Source: Trueperaceae bacterium (GTDB taxonomy: Bacteria; Deinococcota; Deinococci; Deinococcales; Trueperaceae). From it: a stretch of DNA of 64,000 nucleotides. A program made the position numbers and the translations under genes. Position 1 is the first letter of the stretch. Each line of letters starts with the position of its first letter. This document shows positions 8,137 through 56,507 of the stretch, in pieces. The stretch lies in NCBI GenBank assembly GCA_020431825.1, contig JAGQHN010000003.1, positions 13,197-77,196 on the forward strand. The letters run 5' to 3'. The notes under the pieces were generated by a model that was given only the letters and a program-made list of their open reading frames with translations, was not told the DNA's origin and made no database searches.

Positions 8137-9349
8137 TGTCAGCCTCCATCAGGTTCATGACGCGCATGGCTTCGGTTACATCTTTGTCCCCTCTGCCAGA
8201 GAGATTAACAACAATGACCTGATCTTTAGCCATGGTTGGGGCAAGTTCCAAAGTGTGATAAATGGCATGAGAGGACTCGAGTGCCGGGATAATGCCTTCA
8301 ATTTCACTCAGTTTTTTAAAGCCAATGAGTGCCCCTTCATCGGCTACAGATACGTAGTTTGCCAAACCTGCATCAGCAAAATAACTGTGTTCAGGGCCTA
8401 CACCAGGATAATCAAGTCCAGCTGAGACCGAGTGGGCCGGACTTATTTGTCCGTCATCATCGCTCATAAGGTACATAAGGGAGCCGTGCAGTACGCCACG
8501 TTTTCCCGCGGAAATACTTGCAGAATGTGCTCCTGATTGCAGTCCATGACCGGCAGCTTCTACACCGATTAGCTTTGGGCGCTCTGCATCTGGCAAATAA
8601 GCAAAGGGTGCAAATATGCCTATGGCATTGGAGCCACCCCCGACACAAGCAACTACCACGTCAGGAACTTTTCTCCCTTCGGCCAGCTCGAGTTGTTCCA
8701 TGGTTTCAAAGCCAATCACACTCTGAAAATCTCTGGTCATCATTGGGTAGGGGTGAGGCCCGATTACTGAACCGATAATGTAAAACGTATCTCTCACATG
8801 GGTGACCCAGTCACGTATGGCTTCGTTGGTCGCGTCCTTTAAAGTGCGGGTGCCACTGGTAACCGGGCTTACCGTAGCACCAAGAAGTTTCATTCGGTAA
8901 ACATTCAGCGCCTGCCGTCTGACGTCTTCCTCGCCCATGTAGACAGTGCAGTGAAGGCCAAACAGGGCAGCGGCAGTTGCGCTGGCAACACCGTGTTGCC
9001 CGGCCCCGGTTTCCGCGATAAAGCGTTTTTTGCCCATTCTCTTAGCCAGGAGTGCTTGCCCTATGGCATTGTTTATCTTGTGGGCACCAGTATGATTTAG
9101 GTCTTCACGTTTGAGATAAATCTTTGCACCACCACAGTAGCGGGTCAAATTTTCTGCATAGTACAGCAGGCTGGGGCGACCAACGTAAGTTTTTAAGTAA
9201 TGATGATATTCGGCTAAAAAGTCTGGACTGCGGCCAATGGTTTGGTAGGCTTCAGAGAGTTCATCCAGTGCAGGAATTAGGGTTTCGGGTACATAGCGGC
9301 CACCGTAAATGCCGAAACGACCTTTCGCATTTGGTTGTGGAAAAAGCAT
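8123..9349 (-). CDS. trpB: Tryptophan synthase beta subunit
   Basis: Condenses indole with serine to tryptophan using pyridoxal phosphate. The 408-residue protein is a TrpB1-type chain. It shows [14 protein letters not shown] at the start, the PLP lysine K91 in [10 protein letters not shown], and the phosphate-holding GGGSNAIG near residue 238. The start is set by AGGAG just upstream. The gene lies 8 nt after the EamA transporter gene and overlaps trpA, giving an eamA-trpB-trpA operon. Confidence 0.97.
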
Positions 9350-9357
9350 AATTACTC

Positions 9358-10248
9358 CTAAGAAGACGGACTGAGCCGCCTAAAGATTTTGAACTTGGGG
9401 CTAACAACAAGGGCGACACCAATAATGGCAAGGAACATGCCAAGGTAGGCTAACCAGCTTAGATGTTCGCCAAACAAGAGGTAAGCCTCGAGTGCGGTAG
9501 CAAGAGGTACGAGGTAAAAAAGGCTGCCTGTTTTTGCTGCAGCGTTGCGCTCGATAAGGACCATAAGTAGCATAACTGCGCCAAATGACAAAACAATTAT
9601 GAGCCAGCTCAGGGCAAAGATAAACTCGGGTTGCCAGCTTATTTGCCTGTTCTCAAGACTAAAGGCCAGGATGCCTAGAATCAGACTACTGCTGGCATAC
9701 TGCACAAAAGTTCCGGCAAGAACGGGCATTTGTTTAACATAGCGCTTTTGATATATGGTGCCAAAACTTATAGCAAAAAGGGCAATAAGGGCGGAAATCA
9801 GTGTGGCAGGTGTTACATCTAGGTGGGTTCCTTGCATACGGGTTATGACCACCGTGCTCATGCCGACAAGACCCAAAACGAGACCTAGCCACTGCTGAAG
9901 GCTCGAGTCCTCTTTGAGAAAAAGCCGGGCAAATACGGCTGTCACAATAGGTTGCAAGCCAGTTATCAGTGCTGCAACGCCAGCGGGCATGCCGTGCTTT
10001 ATTGCCCAAAATACCCCACCTAGATACCCAGCATGAATAAGTAATCCTGAAAAGGCAATGTGCTTAAGCTGCTCAGGTTTAGGCCAGGGGCGTTTCATAA
10101 GAATGACAACTAGTGCCAGGAGTCCAGCCGCAATACTTAGCCTCAGGCTCAAGAATGTAAAGGGTTCGGCAAAGGGCAAACCATATTTCGCACCGATAAA
10201 ACCAGTGCTCCAAAGTAAAACAAACAGAATGGGAATAAGGCGGGTCAT
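9358..10248 (-). CDS. EamA-family (DMT superfamily) permease
   Basis: An inner-membrane transporter of 296 residues with two EamA repeats and about ten predicted membrane segments. It opens with [21 protein letters not shown], typical of the family, and ends in a basic tail (KFKIFRR). It is the first gene of a tight operon with trpB and trpA (8-nt gap). Export of an aromatic amino acid or a related metabolite is therefore a reasonable guess, but the family is too broad to fix the substrate. Confidence 0.88.
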
Positions 10249-19021: not shown

Positions 19022-19042
19022 AATCGTGAAAATATTCACTAA
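19022..19042 (-). promoter_or_regulatory. 21-bp palindromic motif, copy 1
   Basis: Minus-strand match to TTAGTGAA-N3-TTTCACGATT with no mismatch in the fixed positions (spacer TAT). It is in the gap between the HD gene and yigZ. Confidence 0.65.
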
Positions 19043-43911: not shown

Positions 43912-44916
43912 ATGAAAAAAATCGTCCCCGTCTTAGGGCTCGTACTTTTTCTGGTTATCGTTGGCGTGTGGTTATCAAAACCAAGTACCACTTTAATACC
44001 AAACGCCGTCAGTGCCCAGGAAGATCAAGGCCAGGACAATCAAAGTAATGAGTCATCACCTGAAACGACTGCTGGAGATTCAGAGGAAACACCTGCAACT
44101 GAAACTGCTCATGAGGATAGTGATACAGCAACAAGCGAAGTCGTTGCCATCCCGGAGGGTTTTAGTGAAGTTGAGCCGCTAAGCGCTGAACAGGAGCAGG
44201 TTTTTGATCAGGCAGAAGAGGTTCTGGACCCTGCTAAGGATTATCAGGCGCTCCTTGTTACCACCAAGGGAACCATCCGAGCTGACCTATTTGAAGAGAA
44301 AGCGCCTAGAACAGTCAATAATTTTGTCTTTCTATCACTTCATAAATTTTATGACGGCATTGTATTTCACCGGGTGCTCGAGGATTTTATGGCGCAAACC
44401 GGTGACCCTACGGGCACGGGCAGAGGTGGCCCTGGCTATCAATTCGATGATGAATTTGACGCTAGTCTCAGGCACGACAAACCTGGCATGCTAAGTATGG
44501 CTAATTCTGGACCTAATACCAATGGTTCACAGTTCTTTATTACGTTTGTTGAAACACCGTGGCTTGATGACAAACACAGTGTTTTTGGCGAAGTTGTAGA
44601 AGGTAGTGATGTCTTAGACAAGCTGACGAGAATTGATCCAAGCAACAATGTCCCGGGCATCATCGTGAATCTAGATGCGCCTCTTGCTGACCTAAAAGAA
44701 AAAGGTCTTGCTGTTGAAGGTGATGACAGTGAAACAGTGGAAGACTTTTTACGGACATCGCTTGGCGAGCTACCAGAGATGGGCAGTTCATTTAAACTCT
44801 TAGACTATGACGCGGTTGTTGGACGCGTAGGTGAAACGCCCGCCCTCGGAGTCTATCTGGACAGTCCAGACAAAATCACTAAAGTCATCATCATCGAACA
44901 GCCCAAAAGCGAGTAA
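43912..44916 (+). CDS. Membrane-anchored cyclophilin-type peptidyl-prolyl isomerase
   Basis: A 334-residue exported foldase. Residues 5-22 are a signal anchor, 35-75 an acidic low-complexity linker (Q, E, D, S, T), and 105-255 a cyclophilin domain: [40 protein letters not shown] and [24 protein letters not shown]. The catalytic arginine is in FHRV. About 80 further residues after the domain are unrecognised. GGAG precedes the ATG. The next gene is a second copy of the domain, 9 nt away. Confidence 0.93.
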
Positions 44917-44925
44917 GGAGCCCTC

Positions 44926-45486
44926 ATGTATTTACCAGAAGGTTATTCACCCATTGCACCCCTATCAGAAAAGCGCGTAACTTCGTTTAAAAAGGCAGAA
45001 CCAGTACTCGAGCAAGGCAAAGATTACCGTGCCGTAGTTGAAACCAGTAAAGGGCGACTTGTTCTTGATTTATTTCAAGATGAGGCCCCTATGACGGTGA
45101 ACAATTTTGTTTTTCTGACACTGCACAAATACTATGATGGCGTGGTCTTTCACCGCGTCCTCGATAATTTTATGGCCCAAACGGGTGACCCAACGGGCAG
45201 CGGCAGAGGTGGTCCTGGCTACACCTTTGGTGATGAAACCAGCAATGGCAAACGTCATGTAGGTAAAGGCATATTGAGCATGGCGAATACAGGAATGCCA
45301 AGTTCTAATGGCTCACAGTTTTTTATTACCTTTGTTCCAACACCCTGGCTGGACGGAAAACACACCGTTTTTGGAGAAGTAATCGAAGGGCTCGAGGTTC
45401 TTGACAAGCTCAATCGCATTGATCCTCAAAGACCCGGTGGCGCACAGCCCGATGTCATGAACGAAGTCTATATTGTTGCCAAATAA
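44926..45486 (+). CDS. Cyclophilin-type peptidyl-prolyl isomerase, probably cytosolic
   Basis: A 186-residue single-domain cyclophilin without signal peptide. It begins [21 protein letters not shown], a segment also present before the domain of the preceding gene. It then shows [31 protein letters not shown] and [24 protein letters not shown]. The two neighbours are closely alike over about 150 residues, which points to a tandem duplication with one copy keeping the export signal. AAGGAG precedes the ATG and a terminator follows. Confidence 0.94.
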
Positions 45487-50565: not shown

Positions 50566-50586
50566 TTAGTGATTTATTTCACGATT
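50566..50586 (+). promoter_or_regulatory. 21-bp palindromic motif, copy 5
   Basis: TTAGTGAT-TTA-TTTCACGATT (one mismatch), 112 nt upstream of the DUF1175 gene and its alpha-2-macroglobulin neighbour. Confidence 0.6.
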
Positions 50587-50697
50587 TTCCTGCTTGAAAC
50601 ATTTTTATTGCCAAAGGAGGATACTTTTAAGCTGGTTATTACACAAACCTTCAGGCTTTTTGGGTCTACACTCGAGTTAACGTTTTGGCAGGCTATC

Positions 50698-51426
50698 ATG
50701 AACCTTTCTCCAAGAGCACTGGTCTTTTTCATCCTTCTCGTGAGTCTATCTTTGACGAGCAGCTTTGCCTTTTCTCCCCTTGATAACGATAAGGACGGTT
50801 ATCCTGACGTTGTTGAATTCAGAACAAGTAGCGAAAAACGAGCCTTTAGAGAGTGGTTTGCGGCCATTGCGGAAGCGCAGTTCACGGCACCTGCGCCGGA
50901 CTGGACCTACCGTGACTGTTCTGGCTTATTACGTTACGCCTTTGTTGAAGCTCTCAAACCCAAAGATAGCGATTGGTTCGCCAAGTTTCCCTTTCTCCGC
51001 CCACCAACTATTGCTTCACCAAGCAGGGTCAGCTACCCAATGGCAGGTATTAGCCGCAGCGTTTTTCGTATTGCGGAAGGTAGTTATCAACTCAGTGATG
51101 TTGAGCAAGGAAGGATGGTAGGTCTGGCCACTGCCGCAGAACTGATGCGCTACTCGAGTGTTCCTCTGGGCAAACAGGAAAGTTCGGCGCAGCGAGGTGA
51201 TTTGCTCTTTTTTGTCCACCCGCTAGCTGAAGGCTCGAGCTATCACAGCCTGATTTATCTGGGAAACGGCATGGTGGTTTATCATACAGGGGCGAGCCCT
51301 GAAGAGGGGGGTGAAGTGCGCCTGTTAAGCCTGGACACTTTGCGCAAACACCCTGACCCAAGCTGGCACCCTGACGCTAACAACCCTAACTTTCTCGGCT
51401 TTTATAGATGGAAAATCCTGGACTAA
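50698..51426 (+). CDS. DUF1175 (YfaT-like) secreted protein
   Basis: A 242-residue protein from the ATG at 50698 (signal segment ALVFFILLVSLSLTSSFAFS); a longer frame from 50569 runs back through the 21-bp motif and is rejected. It shows DNDKDGYPDVVEFR, then DCSGLLRYAFVEAL with a cysteine in a DCSG motif like that of NlpC/P60-type hydrolases, and RGDLLFFVHP with YHSLIYLGNG (a possible histidine). This is the DUF1175 family, whose E. coli member yfaT neighbours the alpha-2-macroglobulin gene yfaS. The same pairing here supports the call. A cysteine peptidase-like fold is my inference. Confidence 0.85.
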   Translation: MNLSPRALVFFILLVSLSLTSSFAFSPLDNDKDGYPDVVEFRTSSEKRAFREWFAAIAEAQFTAPAPDWTYRDCSGLLRYAFVEALKPKDSDWFAKFPFLRPPTIASPSRVSYPMAGISRSVFRIAEGSYQLSDVEQGRMVGLATAAELMRYSSVPLGKQESSAQRGDLLFFVHPLAEGSSYHSLIYLGNGMVVYHTGASPEEGGEVRLLSLDTLRKHPDPSWHPDANNPNFLGFYRWKILD

Positions 51427-51508
51427 TTTGCCCATTCGAGCAAAGTGTAACGGTATATATCGCGTTTTCTTGCAAAACCCTCTAGCTTCATCGCACACTA
51501 GGAGTATT

Positions 51509-54500
51509 ATGCGCAAACTTTCCCTCATACTGATCTTCGCCTTTTTAAGCCTCTTACTGGTAAGTGCACAGGATGAAAACATCTGGCTATATGGGGGTGG
51601 TGTCTACAAGCCTGGCGAGGGTATTCAACTCGAGTACCGGGTTCCACCACTGGCACGCGCTGAGCTTTCACTTTACCGAATTGGCAATCCTGAAAAACTA
51701 CTTGCCCTTGGCGGCCCCAGAGATTTTCAAGAAAGCGATGAACTCGAGCGCAGCCTCGTTAATAGCTACAGCGTCAGGAATGCTCAAGATGAGTACTGGG
51801 GCACTATTAGTTTGGGCACACTAAGCGCCGGGCTTTACTTTGCACAGCTCGAGCGCGGTAGTAGCAAAAGCGCAACCTTAATATTGGTTTCAGACCTCAG
51901 CATGGTCGTCAAAAGCGATGAAGATAGTGTTTTGACCTATACCGCCAGTGATGATGGACAACCCAGAAAGGCTAAAGTTTATCTCTTAAATACTGCCAAG
52001 AAAACGCTCTACGCCGAAGGACTTGCCAATGACGATGGCCTGACTGAATTTAATAAAGACACTACCGATGAACTCATAGCTGCTGCAAAATACGGCAATG
52101 CCTGGGCCTTTAGCAGCTCTTACTGGAGTAGCTGGGGCTTGCAAAAATCGAGCATTTACTTACAGACAGATCGGCCCCTTTACCGCCCCGGTCATCTTGT
52201 CTACGTTAAAGGTACGGCACGCTCGACTACAAAATTGAGACCTCTGGTTGGTCAAAGCGTAGAGCTGGTTATAACCGACCCGGACGGCACGGAACTCCTT
52301 AAAGATCGTTTAGAAACCGATGCTTTTGGTAGTTTTACCAGCGAACTGCAGCTACCGGCCAGCAGCCCTCTGGGCTACTACAGCATCAGTGCCAGCCTGG
52401 ACGGCGAAACAAGCTACAGTAGTTTTGAGGTGCAGGAATTCCAAAAACCAGAGTACCGGGTAACGGTGAGCAGTGAAAAAGATACGGCTATTCAGCAGGA
52501 TAGTGCCCACTTTACCGTCAGCGCCGAATATTTGTTTGGAGGAGCTGTTAAAGGTGCGCAGGTAAATTACGCCGTTATGCGAGAGCCGTACTACCGCTGG
52601 TATCCTTACTACTATGACATTGCGCCGTACTATGGCGGCGATGTCTTAGAAGAGGGTGAGGCCACTCTCGATGAAAATGGCAAGCTCGAGCTAGATATTC
52701 CGCTGCCGGGTTTTGAAACCGACTACCGCCTGACTGTACAGGCCAGAGTTACCGACGCTGCCCGACGAGAAATCAGCGCCAGCTCGAGCATTAAAGTGTT
52801 CCGCTCCAATATTGTCCTGAATATAAAAACCGAACGCTACGCCTACAAAGTCGGTGAGAACGGTCTGGTGACCATAGAAGCTGAAGACATTGACGGGAAT
52901 CCGGTCTCGGTGCCTTTTACGGTTGAAACGGAAAGGTATGTCTGGGAGAATGGCTCGAGCCGGACCTTAAAAGGCCAGGTTTACCGGGGTAGTACCTCAG
53001 CAGAAGGTCAGGCAACGCTTACTGTGCCCTTTGACAATCAGGGGTCATATAGCCTGACCGTACGCGCGGCAGACACCGAGGGCCGTGAAACCAGTGCAAC
53101 CGACTCCGCCTGGGTTTCAGGGAATTCCTACTGGTACTGGGCCTATGACGGCTTAAGTTTAAGAGCCGATAAACCCTCCTATAACGTTGGTGATACGGCT
53201 CGAGTCGTCATACAGTCACCAGTTGCCGATGCCTACGTCCTGATAACTTATGAAGGTCAGCGCCTTGGTAACTACGAATTGCTAAAACTAAACGGCTCGG
53301 TTCTGACATACGAATTTACCATCACCGAGGAAATGAGTCCCAACACCTATCTTGGTGTTTCCCTTATTGGCGATGGCAGTTCTTACTATGACACCCTTAA
53401 TCTAAACGTGCCACCTAGCAATAAATATCTCAATGTAGAAATAACATCAGATGCTGACACTTATAAGCCTGGCGAGACGGGGCAGTTTGATATCCGCGTG
53501 TCTGATGTAACTGGGCAAGGGCTAGAAACACAGTTAACGCTGGGGCTGGTCGATGAGGGTATCTATCTACTTAGAGAAGACGGCACTCCAAATATTAAGG
53601 ACTTTTTCTATGCTCAACGTAGCAATGTAGTAGGTACGGACTTAAGTGACTGGTTTTATTTTGGCAGTGTGGCACCTGTTGCCGATGCTGGCTATAACCT
53701 GACCACGGCTGCCCCAATGGCGGCGCGAGAAGCCATGGACGAAGCAGTTTTCTCCCAGGCGAAATCTAGCTTTGCACCGGCGGATGTACGCGAAGATTTC
53801 CGCGATACGATTCTCTGGTTACCAGCACTCGAGACCAATAGCCAGGGACTGGCTCAGGCTGAAGTAAGCTTCCCTGATAATCTCACCGAATGGCGTTTAA
53901 CAGCCAGAGCAATTTCATTAGAGGATCAGGTGGGTCAAAATACCTATGCTGTTAAAACCACTTTGCCCCTAATCGCACGCCTGGCCAAACCAAGGTTTTT
54001 GATTAACGGTGACTCTAGTGAGTTTCGAGTTATCGCTCAGAGCAATCTTGAGACGGATACCACAGCTCAGCTCGAGCTTACCGCTGAGGGTATAGACATT
54101 TCGGGGTCTGCCCAGACCCTTCCTCTGGCTGCTGGCGACAGTGTGCATCAGGATTTCACCGTTAATGCCAGTCACACGGGAGTGGCAAGTGTCACGGCAA
54201 CGGCATTAAGCAGCGAGGCGTCTGACGCTCTGAAATTGCCTTTGCCCGTACTGCCACACGGCATAAGGTCTGATATTGCCTGGGCTGCCAGCGGCACCAG
54301 TAGCTGGACGTTTAACCTGCCCGAGTCAACTGACTTAAATTCTGCGGCAGGTACGCTTTACCTGACACCTTCATTAGCGGCAGCCGTCTCCCCTGCCCTT
54401 TCCTACCTTGCTGGTTATCCTTATGGTTGTACAGAGCAAACCATGAGCCGCTTTTACCCAAGCGTCCTGGCTAAGAGCGCTGGTAACCTTGCCATGCTGC

Positions 54501-55885
54501 CTGAAGAGGTCGCGTCTAATCTTGATGATATGGTTGCCAAAGGGCTCGAGCGCATTTACAGCTTCCAGCATGATGATGGGGGCTGGGGGTTCTGGCAGTA
54601 CGACAGCAGTAATCCCTTTATAACAGCTTATGTAGTAAACGGCTTACTGGATGCCGAGGCACAGAGTTACAGAATTCGAGATTATGTTTTAGATAGTGCG
54701 CTCTCTTACCTCGAGTCGATTATTCATAGTGAATCTTTTGACGATTATCGCCTGGTAGAAGCAGATGCCAAAGCCTATGCTTATCTGGCGCTAGCAAGAG
54801 CAGGGCGAGGCGTTTCAGGCTTAACCCAAGTAGTTGATTCTGGTGATATGTCAGCGTATGGCTTTGCCCTTGCCAGCTTAGCCTTTTATCAGTATGGTGA
54901 GCTTGAGCTTGCCGAAAAGACGCTTGATGCCCTGCTAGGTAAGGCAAAAGAATCAAACAGTCTGGTCTACTGGGACTCAGAAGCCCCCAGATACTACTGG
55001 AATGACGACAGTCTGGAGACAACCGCTTATGCCCTCGAGGCACTGGTGAGTTTGCGCCCCGACGCCCCCATCATTCCAAAAGTGGTCAACTATCTGCTCC
55101 TCGAGCGCGATGGTAGCTACTGGCACTCCACTAAAGAAACGGCTGCCATTGTAAAAGCCGCGTTAAAACTGGCTGAGGTTACCGGCGAAGTGACGAGCGA
55201 GTCTGAGGTTAGCGTCCTGTTAAATGGTCAGCAAATCTATCAGGGGAGTATGTCCGGACAATCTGAGGATGGTGTGGCAATTGATTTAAGTCAGCTCAAG
55301 CTTGGCGACAATACGCTAGATGTCTCAGTATCTGGCGAAGGTACCCTCTACTTAAGCGCCAATACGCATTATGTGGCTGAACAGGCAAACTACAGCCCTG
55401 AAATGGAAAATTTCCGAATTAAGCGAACCTATGAAGTCTTAAGCTCGAGGCTGGACCGTGAAACCAATACCTATGTCTATGACCGCAAGCTCGAGCTTAG
55501 CAAGGTGCAAGAAGGCGACTATATTCTAGTAACGGTCGAAATAACACCCGAAGATAATTATCGATATGTCATGGTCAACGACCCACTTCCCGCAGGCTTT
55601 AGCGTAGTTGAGGATGACAGTGTTTTTCGCATTGCTGGCGTTGAGCCGCGCTACGGCTATGACTACTACGGCTGGAATTACTGGTATGACGGTCGTGAAG
55701 TCCATGATGAACGGGTTGATTTCTACTTTACCTATCTGGCTGACCCGGTTACCTTTACCTACATTCTGCGCGCCGAAACTCCTGGTAGCTATGCTGCCCT
55801 ACCGACCCAAGCCTGGCTCATGTATGAACCAGACATTAAGGGCATTGGTAATGATACAGTGCTGAATATTCAGACGAATCCCTAA
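51509..55885 (+). CDS. Bacterial alpha-2-macroglobulin with thioester
   Basis: A 1458-residue secreted protease-trap protein. It starts at the ATG after AGGAG (51500-51504) with signal peptide MRKLSLILIFAFLSLLLVSA and no lipobox, so it is probably released or periplasmic. MG-type beta domains fill residues 25-700 (LQTDRPLYRPGHLVYVKG at the MG2/3 region). An A2M domain (FRDTILWLPALETNSQGLAQAEVSFPDNLTEWRLTARA) precedes the thioester domain GYPYGCTEQTMSRF with C974 and Q977, and the helical repeats (GWGFWQYDSSNPFITAYVV). Unlike typical CLEQ-type E. coli proteins the motif is CTEQ. It lies between DUF1175 and a metallopeptidase-like gene. Fifteen CTCGAG hexamers. Confidence 0.95.
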   Translation: MRKLSLILIFAFLSLLLVSAQDENIWLYGGGVYKPGEGIQLEYRVPPLARAELSLYRIGNPEKLLALGGPRDFQESDELERSLVNSYSVRNAQDEYWGTISLGTLSAGLYFAQLERGSSKSATLILVSDLSMVVKSDEDSVLTYTASDDGQPRKAKVYLLNTAKKTLYAEGLANDDGLTEFNKDTTDELIAAAKYGNAWAFSSSYWSSWGLQKSSIYLQTDRPLYRPGHLVYVKGTARSTTKLRPLVGQSVELVITDPDGTELLKDRLETDAFGSFTSELQLPASSPLGYYSISASLDGETSYSSFEVQEFQKPEYRVTVSSEKDTAIQQDSAHFTVSAEYLFGGAVKGAQVNYAVMREPYYRWYPYYYDIAPYYGGDVLEEGEATLDENGKLELDIPLPGFETDYRLTVQARVTDAARREISASSSIKVFRSNIVLNIKTERYAYKVGENGLVTIEAEDIDGNPVSVPFTVETERYVWENGSSRTLKGQVYRGSTSAEGQATLTVPFDNQGSYSLTVRAADTEGRETSATDSAWVSGNSYWYWAYDGLSLRADKPSYNVGDTARVVIQSPVADAYVLITYEGQRLGNYELLKLNGSVLTYEFTITEEMSPNTYLGVSLIGDGSSYYDTLNLNVPPSNKYLNVEITSDADTYKPGETGQFDIRVSDVTGQGLETQLTLGLVDEGIYLLREDGTPNIKDFFYAQRSNVVGTDLSDWFYFGSVAPVADAGYNLTTAAPMAAREAMDEAVFSQAKSSFAPADVREDFRDTILWLPALETNSQGLAQAEVSFPDNLTEWRLTARAISLEDQVGQNTYAVKTTLPLIARLAKPRFLINGDSSEFRVIAQSNLETDTTAQLELTAEGIDISGSAQTLPLAAGDSVHQDFTVNASHTGVASVTATALSSEASDALKLPLPVLPHGIRSDIAWAASGTSSWTFNLPESTDLNSAAGTLYLTPSLAAAVSPALSYLAGYPYGCTEQTMSRFYPSVLAKSAGNLAMLPEEVASNLDDMVAKGLERIYSFQHDDGGWGFWQYDSSNPFITAYVVNGLLDAEAQSYRIRDYVLDSALSYLESIIHSESFDDYRLVEADAKAYAYLALARAGRGVSGLTQVVDSGDMSAYGFALASLAFYQYGELELAEKTLDALLGKAKESNSLVYWDSEAPRYYWNDDSLETTAYALEALVSLRPDAPIIPKVVNYLLLERDGSYWHSTKETAAIVKAALKLAEVTGEVTSESEVSVLLNGQQIYQGSMSGQSEDGVAIDLSQLKLGDNTLDVSVSGEGTLYLSANTHYVAEQANYSPEMENFRIKRTYEVLSSRLDRETNTYVYDRKLELSKVQEGDYILVTVEITPEDNYRYVMVNDPLPAGFSVVEDDSVFRIAGVEPRYGYDYYGWNYWYDGREVHDERVDFYFTYLADPVTFTYILRAETPGSYAALPTQAWLMYEPDIKGIGNDTVLNIQTNP

Positions 55886-55893
55886 TGGAGAAA

Positions 55894-55922
55894 GGCATCC
55901 TTTATAAAGCATAGAGGATGCC
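55894..55922. repeat. 8-bp inverted repeat between alpha-2-macroglobulin and metallopeptidase genes
   Basis: GGCATCCT and AGGATGCC surround a 13-nt loop. No T-run follows. It may attenuate transcription into the downstream gene. Confidence 0.5.
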
Positions 55923-55934
55923 AAACGTTCCTTT

Positions 55935-56507
55935 ATGCAACGCCTTTTCTATTCAATGATGCTGCTCTTCAGTTTTGTCTCCGTACAAGCACAGGACTGG
56001 AAGCAAAGTACCGATGGCTATTTCACTGTTTTAACAGCCTCGAGTGAAGATGAACGCTACCTTCCTGAAGTCTTTTCGGTCCTGCAAAAGGCAAAAGCTG
56101 ACTTGAAACGAAAAGGCTATGTGCTGGCCGGGACGGTTACCCTAACCATTCATCCTAGCCTCGAGTCCTTTCAGGAAAGCAGCAAGATGCCCTGGTTTGT
56201 GGCGGCAACCAGTGACCGAGATGATAATCTTATTCAGGTACAACGCTTGCAGGTTTTAAAAGAGCGCTCGAGCCTCACGATTACCTTGCGACATGAGCTT
56301 TTCCATCTGGCACAACCCCTAGACCGGTCACGCTGGCACGCGGAAGGTGAAGCAATGCTGTTTGCAGGGGAGCAGCCAACCGCTGAGCCTTTTAGGGATA
56401 TTTCTGAAGAGGAACTCGAGGCACAGTTACGTCAGCCAGGGTCTACGGACAGTTTTTACCGCGCTATGGCAACAGCTTATCTCTGGACCACTCGAGGAAA
56501 ACCTTAA
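55935..56507 (+). CDS. Small secreted zinc metallopeptidase-like protein
   Basis: A 190-residue protein with a signal peptide (MMLLFSFVSVQAQ, cut near residue 20). The zinc site is TLRHELFHLAQ with H120, E121 and H124, and RWHAEGEAMLFAGE supplies a likely third ligand at E137 or E139 (gluzincin pattern). The front part (YFTVLTASSEDERYLPEVFSVLQKAKADL) resembles peptidase_MA-like/DUF1570 proteins. It lies 50 nt after the alpha-2-macroglobulin gene in the same direction, hence likely part of the same envelope module. Its 3' end overlaps a convergent gene by 4 nt. Confidence 0.78.
   Translation: MQRLFYSMMLLFSFVSVQAQDWKQSTDGYFTVLTASSEDERYLPEVFSVLQKAKADLKRKGYVLAGTVTLTIHPSLESFQESSKMPWFVAATSDRDDNLIQVQRLQVLKERSSLTITLRHELFHLAQPLDRSRWHAEGEAMLFAGEQPTAEPFRDISEEELEAQLRQPGSTDSFYRAMATAYLWTTRGKP

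Follow-up and report, generated by a model that had tools for sequence, protein, structure and literature searches.

Among described macroglobulin systems, the closest to the locus reported here is the Mag complex of Pseudomonas aeruginosa, which is encoded by a six-gene operon (magABCDEF; PMC5764988) and has yfaATSQP as its Escherichia coli equivalent. MagD is a Type II alpha-2-macroglobulin (A2M) without a thioester that still traps a protease; it associates with MagA, MagB and MagF, and intracellular cleavage, which depends on its operon partners and for which no protease was identified in that study, shortens it from 165 kDa to 100 kDa (PMC5764988). In P. aeruginosa, magD protects against peptidoglycan-targeting effectors of the type VI secretion system (T6SS; PMC12663445). 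Here we describe a three-gene module of a Trueperaceae bacterium (GCA_020431825.1), found in a 64,000-nt stretch of contig JAGQHN010000003.1 (hereafter the window), in which a Mag-like pair, a DUF1175 protein and an A2M that has kept its thioester, is joined by a gene for a 190-aa secreted HExxH protein, which we call MP. No treatment of Deinococcota macroglobulins was found in the literature searched.

A Mag-like gene pair with a retained thioester

The three genes, for DUF1175, A2M and MP, occupy window positions 50701-56507, all on the + strand, with gaps of 82 bp between DUF1175 and A2M and 49 bp between A2M and MP; the gene after MP is convergent and overlaps its end by 4 bp. Judged by their signal peptides, all three products are exported. 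The initial annotation of the window had described three exported proteins encoded in one direction, the first with a DCSG motif, the second a 1458-residue A2M with a CTEQ thioester and no lipobox, and the third 190 residues long, and every one of these features was confirmed.

The A2M gene (1458 aa, 51509..55885, +) starts at ATG 51509 and encodes a signal peptide without a lipobox cysteine. Pfam domains MG2, BRD, A2M, TED and bMG10 were found, giving the protein the MG, bait region and TED traits of the A2M superfamily, and its best sequence matches in the PDB were YfhM structures (E 2e-35), with complement C3 also matched. The thioester motif CTEQ (residues 974-977, 54428..54439, +) lies within YPYGC[TS]EQ, and no module A2M whose TED is complete lacked CTEQ or CSEQ. 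Among 14 relatives, the 30 residues around the thioester were the most conserved part of the protein (82% pairwise identity), and the core of the bait region (residues 721-750, 53669..53758, +) was hypervariable in sequence and length, with a pairwise identity of 0.23 that was among the lowest and a gap fraction of 0.27 that was by far the highest. A conserved thioester beside a variable bait is what the sequence of a functional thioester trap with a broad bait should look like, and the most variable part of this A2M is indeed the bait, as a broad trap would lead one to expect.

These features separate the module from both described types. Like the Mag complex, it has DUF1175 directly before an exported A2M without a lipobox, so that its first two genes correspond to MagC-MagD (YfaT-YfaS), but its A2M has a thioester, whereas YfaS, the Citrobacter Type II protein and MagD (PMC5764988) do not; no CXEQ motif was found in E. 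coli YfaS or in the Citrobacter plasmid YfaS. With Type I proteins (YfhM/ECAM, accompanied by PbpC) it shares the CXEQ thioester and the bait, TED and bMG domains, but it differs from them in lacking a lipobox and an adjoining pbpC and in having a DUF1175 partner. In a quick tree of 31 sequences, which has some long branches, module A2Ms grouped together in a single clade, separated from the YfhM/pbpC (Type I) clade by a branch with an SH-aLRT of 100, and were not nested in YfaS. Four A2Ms of one family, f5 (from genomes G040, G044 and G048, and a second copy in G052), also fell in the module clade and have no adjoining MP. By these comparisons the Deinococcota set is a Mag-like pair with a retained thioester, accompanied by MP in place of the other Mag partners; it would work in the manner of an A2M system, but fits neither Type I nor Type II as defined. 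A further A2M type, without CXEQ, was seen in Deinococcus aetherius and G045 (L131, L038) and joined neither type cleanly in the tree.

The DUF1175 protein (241 aa, 50701..51426, +) matched PF06672 (E 9e-53) and NLPC_P60 (E 4e-7) in Pfam, and by sequence it matched P. aeruginosa MagC 7bk8 (E 3e-25), which was also the best PDB match of its structural model (E 1.7e-11), a model of only moderate confidence (pLDDT 67). The open reading frame (ORF) as listed opens at GTG 50569; ATG 50701 is the start that gives a signal peptide. The DCSG motif (residues 72-75, 50914..50925, +) contains an Asp-Cys pair that was invariant across 17 DUF1175 proteins including E. coli YfaT, and Cys73, His182 and His195 are all conserved in the alignment, again including YfaT. 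The window protein carries an N-terminal DNDKDGYPD loop resembling calcium-binding loops, and an extra N-terminal loop of this type (DxDxDGxPD) was present in most Deinococcota DUF1175 proteins and absent from the enterobacterial ones. A review that assigns the DUF1175 family to its class, citing the MagC paper, describes it as inactive and peptidoglycan-binding (PMC10318531), and the protein is probably a peptidoglycan-binding partner of NlpC/P60 fold, reported inactive. The initial annotation had seen two possible proteases or hydrolases beside the trap; given that report, there is likely only one. In a Trueperaceae metagenome-assembled genome (G012:C55:39966-40617; L048, L049) DUF1175 is split over two frames, by a frameshift or an assembly error.

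The thioester and its surroundings also bear on a scheme in which MP would be a convertase, cutting A2M on a cue such as damage so that thioester fragments are deposited on foreign or damaged envelope material. If true, this would be a complement-like proteolytic cascade in free-living bacteria. Retention of the thioester in all complete module A2Ms, the membership of complement C3 in the same superfamily and the peptidoglycan targeting that DUF1175 would offer by homology are consistent with it, but the hypervariability of the bait points to a broad trap and not to a single convertase site, and we consider such a cascade very unlikely.

Linkage of MP to the macroglobulin

A survey of 111 Deinococcota genomes, to which the counts below refer, found MP homologues in 24 of them. 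A scan of additional contigs with a strict peptide pattern placed MP at 13 named loci of Meiothermus, Thermaceae, Trueperaceae and Deinococcales, and it was also present in five plasmids of Meiothermus and Deinococcus, where it is annotated as 'hypothetical protein'. Linkage of the third gene in relatives was a point on which the initial annotation was to stand or fall, and the gene proved to be linked: MP was the next gene downstream of A2M, on the same strand, in 23 of the 24 genomes that have it, and the two were neighbors in 5/5 plasmids, with 4-bp gene overlaps on those of Deinococcus psychrotolerans and Deinococcus sp. KNUC1210. Because MP directly follows A2M with this regularity, a functional link between them is suggested. 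Other neighbors tested in the window (Der, Fmt, two downstream genes and ThrS) yielded one shared gene, with the congener only, and since none was shared beyond the genus, the A2M-MP linkage is not general conservation of gene order.

DUF1175 occurred in 21/111 genomes, all 21 of which have MP. It stood directly before A2M in 18 of the 21, was on another contig in G052, and in two the arrangement was interrupted by contig ends. On plasmids of Deinococcus sp. AJ005 and D7000 (L122, L123), DUF1175 lies far from A2M on the same plasmid, directly after the gene for anhydro-N-acetylmuramic acid kinase (anmK), a peptidoglycan-recycling gene; DUF1175 is thus a looser member of the module. Counted by genus, eight had both MP and DUF1175, one had MP only, none had DUF1175 only and 22 had neither (Fisher p 1.1e-6, a value that overstates independence as the genera are related).

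In two genomes MP is found without an intact neighboring A2M. In G067 (L133, about 9090-10045), counted among the 23, all that remains of A2M is a C-terminal piece of 120 residues ahead of an intact MP, there is no DUF1175 in the genome, and a transposase-like ORF lies some 4 kb upstream; this is module decay. In G045 (L134, 6313-7859), the only genome with an unlinked MP, no A2M is nearby and the orphan gene follows genes for a histidine kinase and a response regulator, overlapping the latter by 4 bp. That orphan is what could be expected if MP were a neighbor without functional link to an otherwise ordinary Mag locus of A2M and DUF1175. Synteny largely refutes such hitchhiking, however, with linkage held over several families and over replicons with differing surroundings, and the co-occurrence statistics of MP and DUF1175 also speak against it, leaving the idea barely credible.

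MP as a predicted minimal gluzincin

MP (190 aa, 55935..56507, +) carries a signal peptide and the zinc-binding motif HELFH (residues 120-124, 56292..56306, +), with a third ligand, E137 (56343-56345), separated from the second histidine by 12 residues. The initial annotation had treated its zinc residues as a point on which the prediction turned, and H120, E121, H124 and E137 proved invariant in alignments of 10, 14 and 10 sequences, down to 28% identity, together with Q103-R104, R133-W134, A136 and G138. With such ligands kept in homologues from 24/111 genomes, the HExxH ORF is not a chance occurrence. No match to MP was found in Pfam or NCBIfam, nor by sequence in the PDB, even with a profile, so that MP is assigned to the gluzincins from its motif, from how well that motif is conserved and from the fold predicted for the protein. 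In the AlphaFold2 model (pLDDT 92.1), HELFH lies on a helix spanning 114-126 and the following helix, 133-144, carries E137, which is the gluzincin layout; the domain is small, and no additional one for recognition is obvious. Best PDB matches by Foldseek were peptidase domains of clostridial collagenases (M9), followed by LTA4 hydrolase (LTA4H) and M1 aminopeptidases (probability 1.00, TM about 0.5, E 2e-4 to 0.1), a match at the level of the superfamily. MP thus resembles the gluzincins of clan MA (M9 collagenases, M1/LTA4H) in having HExxH with a glutamate on the next helix, and differs from them in its small size, in the 12-residue spacing from the second histidine to that glutamate and in the lack of any sequence-level match to Pfam, NCBIfam or the PDB. 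From the computed evidence we have high confidence in the assignments of A2M, DUF1175 and MP, the last as a minimal, unnamed family within the gluzincin superfamily, and MP is quite likely to be an active peptidase.

The initial annotation had likened the first two genes to yfaT-yfaS and had put the metallopeptidase outside that described set, an account borne out by the MagC likeness of DUF1175 and by the comparison of MP with the other partners: as a relative of YfaQ, YfaA or YfaP it was rejected, with hhalign probabilities of 3.8, 0.1 and 2.1%, respectively. DUF2138 (YfaA) and DUF2300 (YfaQ) were each found in 0/111 Deinococcota genomes, and DUF2135 (YfaP) in only 2/111, within frames of about 1000 residues. 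Instead of these Mag partners, the module has the extra gluzincin-like gene. PADLOC gave no match with MP and matched the module to no known anti-phage system, and MP was not found in viral contigs.

The fold and export of MP invite an explanation in which it would be a secreted nutritional or remodelling peptidase, with A2M shielding the cell against both MP and similar proteases; the genes would then stay linked since the peptidase would do harm if its trap were missing. Tight pairing with A2M, including overlapping genes, a signal peptide with intact zinc ligands, and secreted collagenases and aminopeptidases as the closest solved folds are all in keeping with this arrangement. MP tracks DUF1175 as well, which the idea does not need, and it is kept in G045 and G067, where the neighboring A2M is absent or a remnant, and we judge this explanation rather unlikely.

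Proposed mechanism

We tentatively favor a Mag-type module with its own peptidase, in which MP would provide a processing step for A2M. The exported A2M would offer its variable bait to proteases in the periplasm; cleavage of the bait by an invading protease would expose the thioester, and the attacker would be covalently trapped. By its homology to MagC, DUF1175 may hold or target the system at peptidoglycan. MP would act on A2M, most likely in dedicated processing like the step behind 100-kDa MagD in P. aeruginosa, a role suggested by linkage and precedent, or it might instead clear spent A2M. The proposal draws support from the co-occurrence of MP with DUF1175, the invariant zinc ligands and gluzincin-like fold, the thioester, the hypervariable bait and the MagC likeness, from the placement of DUF1175 beside anmK on two Deinococcus plasmids, and from the Mag precedent of trapping by MagD, partner-dependent cleavage and T6SS protection (PMC5764988, PMC12663445). 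A defence or envelope role, as raised in the initial annotation, fits the known Mag complex, in which magD protects against T6SS effectors (PMC12663445).

Several observations weigh against a processing role. The variable bait speaks against one conserved MP site there, and MP may cut elsewhere or not at all; the Foldseek match of the MP model (TM about 0.5) is superfamily-level only; the orphan MP of G045 has no A2M to act on nearby; and the thioester A2Ms of G040, G044 and G048 occur in genomes with neither MP nor DUF1175, so that MP is not needed by every thioester A2M.

The linkage data would also suit a clean-up role, in which MP removes spent A2M-protease complexes or peptidoglycan-linked peptides, by degradation or release, and takes no part in activation. 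Thioester trapping is irreversible, so removal would be needed, and the small size of MP, without an obvious recognition domain, is compatible with such a task, but many A2Ms have no such partner, and we find clean-up rather unlikely.

Other features of the window

The palindrome GTGATTTATTTCACGA (50569..50584, +) lies upstream of the operon, and the GTG at which the listed DUF1175 ORF opens falls within it. The initial annotation had pointed to a 21-bp motif here as part of the module. The motif exists: it is a palindrome of type TAGTGAAATATTTCACGA, present at five sites of the window (8 strand matches vs 0.46 expected), but its assignment to the module did not hold: GTGAAATATTTCACGA stands at intergenic positions 19024, 27967, 43761 and 48075 as well as 50569, close to smc, cyclophilin, fmt and other housekeeping genes, and, read by eye, it was not seen upstream of the congener DUF1175 gene. 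A search of the entire 5.6-Mb genome that allowed up to 2 mismatches gave three sites, every one of them in the window. We therefore rejected the palindrome as the module's own regulatory signature in favor of an element local to the contig. It is possibly an operator for a redox repressor of the Rex type, whose operators it may resemble, or a local repeat. No RNA element was found in or near the operon, and promoter and terminator scans gave matches no more than chance.

CTCGAG occurs 176 times in the window (1-64000) vs about 14 expected from composition, a 12-fold excess, and is a HIP1-like overrepresented palindrome. In other loci counted (including L018, L019, L139 and L120), the excess was 24- to 32-fold in families f2 and f5 and 4- to 9-fold in several Trueperaceae and Meiothermus loci, and the hexamer was depleted (0.2-fold) on the Deinococcus psychrotolerans plasmid locus. 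Within the A2M gene, 11/15 copies are in frame as Leu-Glu. At 43912-45486 the window also contains a tandem pair of cyclophilin genes that share a 172-nt stretch at 77% identity and look recently duplicated.

Implications

A MagC-linked A2M that keeps its thioester breaks the division of bacterial A2Ms into Type I and Type II, and in MP the Deinococcota have a predicted peptidase family whose genes are firmly tied to those of an A2M. The three-gene operon offers an adjoining candidate protease for a cleavage such as the one that yields 100-kDa MagD, and some of its copies are in cultivated Meiothermus and Deinococcus. Compared with the Pseudomonas Mag defence complex, the module looks like a simpler, thioester-armed cousin.

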